From the NCBI GenBank assembly GCA_015056205.1, contig SVGS01000002.1, positions 1 through 64,000 of the forward strand: 64,000 nt of DNA, written 5' to 3'. Under the pieces are notes generated by a model, which was not told the DNA's origin, ran no database searches, and saw only the letters and a list, made by a program, of their open reading frames with translations. Each line of letters opens with the position of its first letter. Position 1 is the stretch's first letter. Shown piece after piece: positions 26,288 through 28,778 of this stretch. The position numbers and the translations under genes were made by a program. Origin of the DNA: Clostridiales bacterium (GTDB lineage Bacteria > Bacillota > Clostridia > Christensenellales > Aristaeellaceae).

Positions 26288-26623
26288 ATGCTTTCAGCGC
26301 AGCAGATCATTCTCATGGCCGCCCAGCTGGTCGGCGGTCTTGCCTTGTTTCTTTACGGGATGAACGTCCTGAGCTCCTACCTGACGCAGTTCTCCGTTAC
26401 CATGATCATCCAGAGTTCGGACGCCACCATCGGCATCCTCCAGGCCCTGGCGATCAGCGTCAGTGTGAATTTCCGGATGGCCGTCGTCATTGTCTGCGGC
26501 GCCCAGATCGGCACCTGTATCACGGCGATTCTTTCCTCCGTCGGAAGCGGGAAGAGCGCAAAACGCGCCGCACTGATCCATGCTCCACCTGTTGTATTTC
26601 ATTTGCCATTCTATATACTGTGA
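26288..26623 (+). pseudogene. Na/Pi cotransporter family remnant with internal deletion and 3' truncation
   Basis: GLALFLYGMNVLSS, MIIQSSDATIGIL, GAQIGTCITAILSS are compressed versions of conserved Na/Pi symporter motifs; C-terminal tail unrelated. Confidence 0.6.
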
Positions 26624-26671: not shown

Positions 26672-26700
26672 TTGACAGGAAAGCGCTTGCCTGTTATAGT
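26672..26700 (+). promoter_or_regulatory. promoter TTGACA-17 bp-TATAGT driving MFS leader
   Basis: TTGACA 26672-26677, TATAGT 26695-26700. Confidence 0.85.
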
Positions 26701-26724
26701 TACCCCGCAAGGAGGTTCGGTGTG

Positions 26725-26781
26725 ATGTTGTGGAAAATGTGCAACGTACTGCTCTTTAAAGGCGTAATTGCTGCCCCGTAA
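26725..26781 (+). CDS. putative regulatory leader peptide MLWKMCNVLLFKGVIAAP
   Basis: AAGGAGG SD at 26709-26715, 9-nt spacing to ATG; stop lies inside the first downstream hairpin. Confidence 0.6.
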   Translation: MLWKMCNVLLFKGVIAAP

Positions 26782-26801
26782 GGGGGAAGTATGCCTTTTT
26801 T
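26758..26801 (+). promoter_or_regulatory. leader hairpin A with T6 tract (attenuator-like)
   Basis: AAAGGCGTA / TATGCCTTT stem, inner CCCC-GTAA-GGGG, TTTTTT. Confidence 0.65.
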
Positions 26802-26830
26802 GAGCCCGAACCGGGTCACGGGTATATATT

Positions 26831-26867
26831 CTCCTTAACAGAAAACATGATTGTTAAGGAGTTTTTT
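26831..26867 (+). promoter_or_regulatory. leader hairpin B: terminator-like, sequesters the MFS SD
   Basis: CTCCTTAAC (26831-26839) pairs perfectly with GTTAAGGAG (26853-26861), then TTTTTT; ATG at 26870. Confidence 0.8.
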
Positions 26868-26869
26868 AT

Positions 26870-27967
26870 ATGTTCAAAATCAAAAACCAAATCAGAAAAC
26901 TTTATGCCTCTTCTGTTTTGACCAACCTTTCTCTGACCGGCGCCTGGGTTACGATTCTGGCCGCCCGGGGGTTCAGCCTGCCGGAGATCGGCCTGGCAGA
27001 AACGGCTTACCATGCTGCAAGCCTGCTGACCGAAATCCCGTCCGGTACACTGGCGGATATATACGGAAGAAAAAGAATGCTGCTTATCAGTGCTTTGATT
27101 CATATTCTGGCCAGCGTTACGATGATCGTATCCAATGATCTTTTCATGGTTTGCCTGTCTATCGCACTGTACGCAGTTTGTGACAGCTTTGCCTCAGGAT
27201 CCGGCGATGCGCTTGCTTATGATTCGCTGAAAAGCGCCGGGAAAGAATCGGAATATGACAGGTATGAATCCAATCAGCTGATCATTTATCGCCTGTTCGG
27301 CGGGATTTCCACGCTGTGCGCGGGTTTTGCCCTGATTATCGGATATCGTATAGCCTATGCAGCGGGGATTGTGACCTGCCTGATCAGGATAGGGATACTG
27401 CTTTCTCTGAGGGAGATCCATGTGGAAAAGACCGGACCAGAGCCTGCAGTGATCTCTCCCCTGAAAGCTTTGTTCGGGTGCTTTCGGGACAGTTTGCGAT
27501 TTCTGAAAAAGGAGACGAAGGCCTTTTTACTGATGATGTCCAATTCTCTGGTTGGCGCGATGGATATTCTGTTACTTTTTTTCCTGCAGGCAAAGCTTCC
27601 CGCTGCCGGAGTTTCGGGGGAATGGCTTGGACCTGCGCTGCTTCTGATGCAGCTGGGGGGAATCATCGGGGCTAAAATGGTCCTGAGGTTCAGGAACTGC
27701 AGTTACAGAGGAATCTTCCTGGCTGCTGCAGGGCTGGTGGTTACGGGCATTGCAATGGAACATACGGGCATTCCTCTTCTTATGACTGCCGGCGGATTCA
27801 TTGCGGCGTTGGCCGACGATGCACTTCAGGTACGAACCAACACACGTCTGCAGAATATGTTTCTCTCCGGGTATCGGGCGACATTGATTTCCATAGAGTG
27901 CTTTACATTCTCGATCATCATGATCGTTCTTTCGCCTTTGGCGGGATTCTTTTTCTCGATCTGGTAA
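26870..27967 (+). CDS. MFS transporter, possibly shortened at the C-terminus
   Basis: About 10-11 TM segments, EIPSGTLADIYGRKRMLLISA loop 2-3 motif; ends abruptly at GFFFSIW. Confidence 0.82.
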   Translation: MFKIKNQIRKLYASSVLTNLSLTGAWVTILAARGFSLPEIGLAETAYHAASLLTEIPSGTLADIYGRKRMLLISALIHILASVTMIVSNDLFMVCLSIALYAVCDSFASGSGDALAYDSLKSAGKESEYDRYESNQLIIYRLFGGISTLCAGFALIIGYRIAYAAGIVTCLIRIGILLSLREIHVEKTGPEPAVISPLKALFGCFRDSLRFLKKETKAFLLMMSNSLVGAMDILLLFFLQAKLPAAGVSGEWLGPALLLMQLGGIIGAKMVLRFRNCSYRGIFLAAAGLVVTGIAMEHTGIPLLMTAGGFIAALADDALQVRTNTRLQNMFLSGYRATLISIECFTFSIIMIVLSPLAGFFFSIW

Positions 27968-28179: not shown

Positions 28180-28461
28180 ATGCTTACTTTCAGAGAGGCC
28201 ATCAGACCGTCCGCCGACCTGAGGAACCACTATAATGAAGTATCCAGGCAATGCAGGGAGAACAAGGAAGCAGTGATCATTACAGTTAACGGACGGGGTG
28301 ATACCGTTTCGCTTGCCTACGAAGAATATAACCGTCTGAAAGCAAGAATAGAGCTTCTGGAGATTCTTGCAGAAGCGGAAGAGGACGTGAAAAACGGCAG
28401 AACTGCGCCTGCCCGGGAAACATTCAATGACCTGAGGGATCTTCTGTCGGGGGGATTATGA
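28180..28461 (+). CDS. Phd/YefM-type antitoxin
   Basis: 93 aa, AVIITVNGRGDTVSLAYEEYNRLKARIELLEIL; overlaps the next gene by 4 nt. Confidence 0.8.
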   Translation: MLTFREAIRPSADLRNHYNEVSRQCRENKEAVIITVNGRGDTVSLAYEEYNRLKARIELLEILAEAEEDVKNGRTAPARETFNDLRDLLSGGL

Positions 28462-28778
28462 TGGAGTATAAGGTACTGAGAACAGATACAGCAGATTCCC
28501 TCTTCAGAAATATCATACTCTATGTTGCCGAAAGATTCGGGAATGATGTTGCTCTGGAAAAACTGAATGCGCCGGAAACTTCTGTTCTCGCTCTTGCAGA
28601 TAACCCGTATATCGGGACAGATCCGAGATATACTGTGCTGAAACGTCAGGGGTACAAGGTCCTGATTACTGAAAAAGATCTGGTGTTCTACAAGATCAAT
28701 GAGGAGCAAAAGGAAGTTACGATTTATGCAGTATTCGACCAGCGGCAGGACTATCTGAGTATTATCAGGGGCTTATGA
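28458..28778 (+). CDS. ParE/RelE-family toxin
   Basis: 106 aa, VLRTDTADSLFRNIILYVAERFG...LVFYKINEEQKEVTIYAVFDQRQDYLSII; paired with antitoxin. Confidence 0.8.
   Translation: MMEYKVLRTDTADSLFRNIILYVAERFGNDVALEKLNAPETSVLALADNPYIGTDPRYTVLKRQGYKVLITEKDLVFYKINEEQKEVTIYAVFDQRQDYLSIIRGL

Follow-up and report, generated by a model that had tools for sequence, protein, structure and literature searches.

A putative ribosome-controlled attenuator with a conserved leader peptide upstream of an MFS exporter gene in Clostridia

Described leader systems and layout of the locus

The leader of Bacillus subtilis vmlR contains an upstream ORF (uORF), an intrinsic terminator, and an SD-sequestering hairpin, and in the induced conformation a pairing within the read-through RNA disrupts this SD-sequestering hairpin (PMC9226507). 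The same source also describes induction of vmlR by ribosome assembly defects. For the tylosin-induced yxjB leader of B. subtilis, PMC6851288 describes stalling on the leader peptide as raising resistance gene expression via attenuation. The element that we analyzed lies in a 64,000-nucleotide stretch of a Clostridiales bacterium (contig SVGS01000002.1, hereafter the window) and, by analogy, appears to work like the vmlR kind. As in vmlR, an intrinsic terminator (here hairpin A and U6, with a covarying helix T) stands between the uORF and the structural gene, and an SD-sequestering hairpin faces an exclusive alternative pairing that would open it (here helices B and L). In contrast to vmlR, whose leader controls an ABC-F protein, the present leader precedes an MFS pump. 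Furthermore, a separate anti-antiterminator hairpin holds the vmlR uORF, whereas helix T in the present family uses leader codons or the SD of the leader. The likeness to yxjB is one of described mechanism, and the yxjB target, according to PMC6851288, is a 23S rRNA methylase. Finally, the tet(L) leader resembles the present one in having about 20 codons before an MFS exporter and in the spacing of N, L, and G, although the annotated tet(L) transporter has about 460 codons compared to 365 here.

The features of the locus in the window are as follows.

26672-26677, + strand: promoter-like -35 box TTGACA, read from the sequence
26695-26700, + strand: promoter-like -10 box TATAGT, 17-nt spacer to the -35 box, read from the sequence
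26709-26715, + strand: leader SD AAGGAGG, followed by 9 nt to the leader ATG
26725-26781, + strand: leader ORF of 18 codons encoding MLWKMCNVLLFKGVIAAP, with the stop codon TAA at 26779-26781
26758-26801, + strand: hairpin A (helix T), the terminator including its U-run; the 5' arm is leader codons 12-14
26780-26795, + strand: core element AAGGGGGAAGUAUGCC, 3' half of T and 5' strand of helix L; an SD mimic
26820-26836, + strand: GGGUAUAUAUUCUCCUU, 3' strand of helix L, whose CUCCUU doubles as the 5' arm of hairpin B
26831-26861, + strand: hairpin B, mask of the transporter SD, based on sequence, folding, and covariation
26856-26861, + strand: transporter SD AAGGAG, inside hairpin B
26870-27967, + strand: MFS transporter of 365 aa, ATG at 26870, Pfam MFS_1

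Our reading of the sequence confirmed the positions and motifs of the promoter, the 18-codon leader, and hairpins A and B that a sequence-only reading of this DNA had reported. That reading had hairpin B ending 3 nt before the transporter ATG, but the actual gap is 8 nt and it is the T-run that ends 2 nt before the ATG. We predict a leader transcription start at about 26706, a few nucleotides ahead of the leader SD, and observed TTGAC..TAT-like boxes at the equivalent position in five related loci (L002, L004, L005, L007, and L009).

The MFS product matched Pfam MFS_1 at 1.3e-14. The best named NCBIfam families included HP1165 (3.9e-11), Bcr/CflA, and TetA(P) (2e-4), and the NCBIfam search of this protein reached no equivalog and gave no match to tet(L). 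Because all of these scores were far under the cut-offs, we regard the product as an exporter-like MFS protein with a substrate that cannot be read from families. Among named MFS families, the Tet(40)/TetA(P)/HP1165-type exporters came closest in profile searches, yet every score was far under its curated cut-off; more distant relatives such as L046 resembled Tet(40) at 1.3e-10. A search of solved structures gave no sequence match to the MFS product. Directly upstream of the promoter lies a 111-aa remnant of an Na/Pi cotransporter (26288-26623), which covers profile positions of about 163-235 of 294. Downstream of the MFS gene, we observed a gene pair for a Phd-type antitoxin and a ParE-type toxin (28180-28778).

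Conservation of the leader peptide

By reading the sequence ahead of each gene, we collected 92 distinct leader regions that precede orthologous MFS genes from several Clostridia families, including leaders ahead of orthologues that are only 40-45% identical. At further loci from two families, the leader ORF passed the filter in 76 of 78. The consensus of 53 unique leaders is M-x-W-x-x-x-N-x-x-L-x-x-G, with W3 and G13 present in all 53, L10 in 49, and N7 in 47. Across leader codons 2-13, pN/pS was 0.41 in frame versus 1.51 and 0.94 in the shifted frames, which argues that the peptide, besides the RNA, is under purifying selection. The distance from the leader ATG to the terminator core was almost fixed, and an alignment of 36 sequences was nearly gap-free. 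When we searched 388 Clostridia genomes with a sequence-only model of the leader, all 13 strong matches were at this MFS gene and none of them preceded another kind of gene; matches of up to about 22 bits appear to be chance fragments.

The earlier reading had tied its proposal to conservation of the leader and hairpins upstream of MFS homologues, and both proved to be conserved. It had also given a special role to the Pro-stop end of the leader, for which the relatives offered no support: the leaders of close relatives finish with Leu-stop, and those of most relatives are 27-28 aa long and extend past the U-run before stopping.

We found no published description of this leader in the literature searched, which for Term-seq comprised papers outside subscription journals, and the family apparently has been undescribed until now. 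No Rfam 15 family reached its gathering cut-off in the window or in 15 related loci, nor was there a credible weak match. A distant clade-2 leader matched RAxF_45 (NF041642) at 19.8 bits (E 4.7e-4), below the curated cut-off of 27 bits, while the other leaders tested had no match and the window genome had nothing at this locus. RAxF_45 may itself perhaps be a leader family.

Three mutually exclusive helices and two terminator designs

In hairpin A, AAAGGCGTA (26758-26766) pairs with TATGCCTTT (26790-26798) around an inner CCCC/GGGG, the leader stop codon lies in the apical loop, and T6 occupies 26796-26801. In hairpin B, CTCCTTAAC (26831-26839) pairs with GTTAAGGAG (26853-26861), followed by T6 at 26862-26867. 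Folded alone, hairpins A and B reached -18.8 and -12.0 kcal/mol, respectively, and the 186-nt region folded at -63.2 kcal/mol versus -45.3 +/- 4.1 for dinucleotide shuffles (z -4.4; 1/200). A third helix, L, pairs the core AAGGGGGAAGUAUGCC with GGGUAUAUAUUCUCCUU through 15 of 16 core positions (-16.8 kcal/mol). Since the core is common to T and L and CUCCUU is common to L and B, T and B together would form the off state and L the on state. The sequence-only reading overlooked the covarying helix L, which would couple the two controls.

We compared the energies of strands with their own partners to those from 10,000 partner permutations in 88 distinct sequences, from which kinship was not fully removed, and obtained z values of -7.5 for T, -15.0 for L, and -13.1 for B (0/10,000 for each). 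L and B thus covary strongly and T less so, and an earlier permutation run with 92 sequences on L alone agrees. Within L, in the best of a few registers, columns 4, 5, and 6 showed changes on both sides in 35, 27, and 38 of 86 sequences, respectively, with only 3, 0, and 2 sequences unpaired there. The pair types found in these columns (GC, AT, TA, and CG) would be too varied for one ancestral change. Sequence comparison therefore shows both the conservation of the leader and the covariation of the three helices. In the full set of sequences, leader codons 11-18 and the core did not covary significantly (z -1.1), which would fit a pairing confined to the short-leader group.

The terminator itself occurs in two designs. 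We defined long leaders as those of more than 21 aa, which mostly stop after the U-run, and short leaders as those of 21 aa or less, which have their stop codon within or close to the apex of the hairpin. In 65 of 70 long leaders, the SD region of the leader itself supplied the stronger 5' arm of T, with arm pairs such as GGGCGC/GCGCCC, GGGUGC/GCACCC, GGGCACAG/CUGUGCCC, and GUAUACG/CGUAUAC, so that T itself spans the uORF in these leaders. Late leader codons provided the stronger arm in 16 of 18 short leaders, a type that includes the window. L and B are common to both designs. As judged by this comparison, leader length and terminator design are linked.

The window fold contained two further pairings. 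A local hairpin appears over leader codons 1-8, and a long-range helix, GGUUCGG/CCGAACC (26714-26720 with 26806-26812), closes around the leader and hairpin A. Similar long-range pairings seem possible in close relatives of the window.

Modelled stalling, rival explanations, and distribution

To represent a stalled ribosome, we blocked the RNA from 15 nt before to 15 nt after the P site and folded the remainder, with RNA polymerase pausing ignored, so that the resulting values are equilibrium calculations on partial transcripts. In the folding model of the window without a ribosome, T formed at 0.90 and B at 1.00, and the SD was free at 0.00. With a ribosome at codon 13, T fell to 0.00, L reached 0.93 prior to transcription of the SD, and the SD was free at 0.82 on emergence. 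In longer or full-length RNA with the ribosome in place, hairpin B re-formed at equilibrium and the SD was free at only 0.10-0.21. Since the SD is masked again at equilibrium, release in the window copy would have to be kinetic. In the family average of the folding model, both designs released the SD best when the P site was at codons 13-15, adjoining the invariant Gly13, rather than at the Pro-stop end that had been proposed as the stall point. In the model, the long design can accommodate a stall at codons 13-15 only if another ribosome is queued behind it at the start codon.

These analyses suggest the following sequence of events. Without a stalled ribosome, the nascent RNA would fold into T and most transcripts would end at 26796-26801, and any RNA reading through would fold into B, with the transporter SD hidden. 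A ribosome stalled around codons 13-15 would cover the 5' arm of T, causing termination to fail. The freed core AAGGGGGAAGUAUGCC could then pair with GGGUAUAUAUUCUCCUU to form L while the transporter SD is still to be transcribed, and L would consume the CUCCUU needed for B, leaving the SD free on emergence. Considering the comparative support for the leader and helices, we regard this element as a probable ribosome-controlled attenuator of the MFS exporter at the levels of both transcription and translation. The core idea of the sequence-only reading, in which a translated leader governs a terminator as well as a hairpin that masks the SD, would thus hold by conservation and covariation. The stalling, the stall site, the inducer, and the pump substrate are parts of this account that we infer. 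The stalling signal would most likely be a ribosome-targeting antibiotic that the pump exports, an inducer that we offer as a guess because no known resistance gene carries this leader. With somewhat less than even confidence, we further propose that the leaders constitute a new arrest-peptide family (M-x-W-x-x-x-N-x-x-L-x-x-G, with a stall near Gly13) that drives a three-helix switch across several Clostridia families. In such a switch, one segment would serve in turn as terminator arm and SD liberator, and the other terminator arm would have shifted in evolution between the leader SD and leader codons in step with leader length.

The same three helices could also operate without a drug-specific arrest. 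If slowed leader ribosomes or clogged initiation sufficed, the element would be a general sensor of translation stress, triggered by cold, starvation, assembly defects, or any inhibitor. The leader SD forms a terminator arm in the long design, so a ribosome held at the start (codons 1-3) would be enough to block T, and vmlR too responds to ribosome assembly defects, as described in PMC9226507. However, W3, N7, L10, and G13 are conserved beyond what a generic codon stretch needs, and modelled SD release peaks near codons 13-15 in both designs; we consider such a sensor possible but not likely. We view as unlikely a tet(L)-like leader, on which tetracycline-type compounds would slow the ribosome and control would be mainly translational, through coupling or reinitiation, with hairpin A playing a minor part. 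The tet(L) leader scored 4.6 bits against the family profile, in a comparison picked after the resemblance had been noticed and with one gap allowed, versus -18.7 +/- 7.3 for shuffles (176/100,000) and -10 to -30 for the ErmC, ErmA, Cat86, and ErmD leaders. In the tet(L) mRNA, too, part of the leader is complementary to the anti-SD arm (-17.3 kcal/mol). Nevertheless, the Tet_res_leader models PF08050 and NF033685 did not match any of seven related leaders, all longer (21-37 aa) than the 18-aa leader of the window, up to E = 10, whereas a tet(L) control matched at 1.2e-15. In addition, the tet(L) leader lacks W3, and the U-run and T helix kept through the present family contrast with tet(L), which shows no U-run terminator there. 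Because the family models fail and the comparison was chosen after the fact, we did not file the leader under tet(L), and we treat tetracycline-like induction as a lead only.

Two other explanations were rejected. The presence of Trp3 in all 53 unique leaders might point to amino-acid attenuation of a metabolite transporter, such as tryptophan sensing via the conserved Trp codon. We judge this very improbable, as the leader has one Trp codon only and no runs of a single codon, and this lone codon is too far upstream of the codon arm of T: a ribosome at codon 3 left T at 0.93 in the window model. Alternatively, hairpin A could be the ordinary terminator of an upstream gene and the leader ORF a random frame, a view to which the truncated cotransporter fragment immediately upstream lends itself. 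A promoter stands between that fragment and hairpin A, however, and the leader, its spacing, and the helices are conserved and covary beside quite different upstream genes, which contradicts chance hairpins and makes this explanation hardly credible.

In the genus of the window, 7 of 45 genomes had DNA matches to the region and 10 of 45 had MFS protein matches, one of which was a distant homologue only (3.5e-5) and one fragments only. A phylum-wide search at 1e-50 recovered 2 of 398 genomes, one being that of the window. The named relatives are metagenome bins of Clostridiales or Clostridia (one from goat omasum), a Lachnospiraceae bin, and Candidatus Choladousia. A plasmid search gave no match to the leader region and only distant matches, of less than 60% identity, to the MFS protein; a 22-bp plasmid match to a clade-2 core was dismissed as chance, as it sits in IS-rich or unrelated sequence. 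The neighbors of the MFS gene vary from one relative to another, and the gene occurs in few genomes of the genus, which suggests that the locus is a mobile or often-lost cassette.

These results point to a system of inducible export that is spread among Clostridia of the rumen and gut, in which, to our knowledge, few such switches have been characterized. The leader consensus provides a sequence signature for finding further switches, and two interchangeable terminator designs with one liberator helix offer a direct way to study attenuator evolution and the position at which the ribosome has to stall. If the inducer were found, the leader would be a ready reporter for ribosome-stalling compounds.

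Several loci carry altered versions of the arrangement. Two of them, L149 (G412 C2, about 116940-117036) and L042, have an insertion containing a transposase-like ORF of 408 aa that splits the masked SD from the MFS start codon, so that the leader and hairpin B are intact but severed from the MFS gene. A decayed copy (L003 / L031, G019 C28) has lost the leader and the 5' part of the terminator and has an internally deleted MFS gene (126 aa), with the terminator 3' arm and hairpin B still present. Another locus (L033 / L090, G430 C20) has an MFS orthologue (606 bits with the A2 profile) without a leader but with hairpin B retained. Finally, more distant Tet(40)-like MFS genes of about 400 aa (L046-L048, L052-L056, and L058) have a different conserved leader, for example MSNFSFSIIEYLAYAHAITGDFGAQGRSMPKIEYYVNQ followed by a stop codon, with a weak match to RAxF_45 below its cut-off, and a similar core, ACAAGGGAGAAGTG, which is often followed by a separate terminator-like hairpin.
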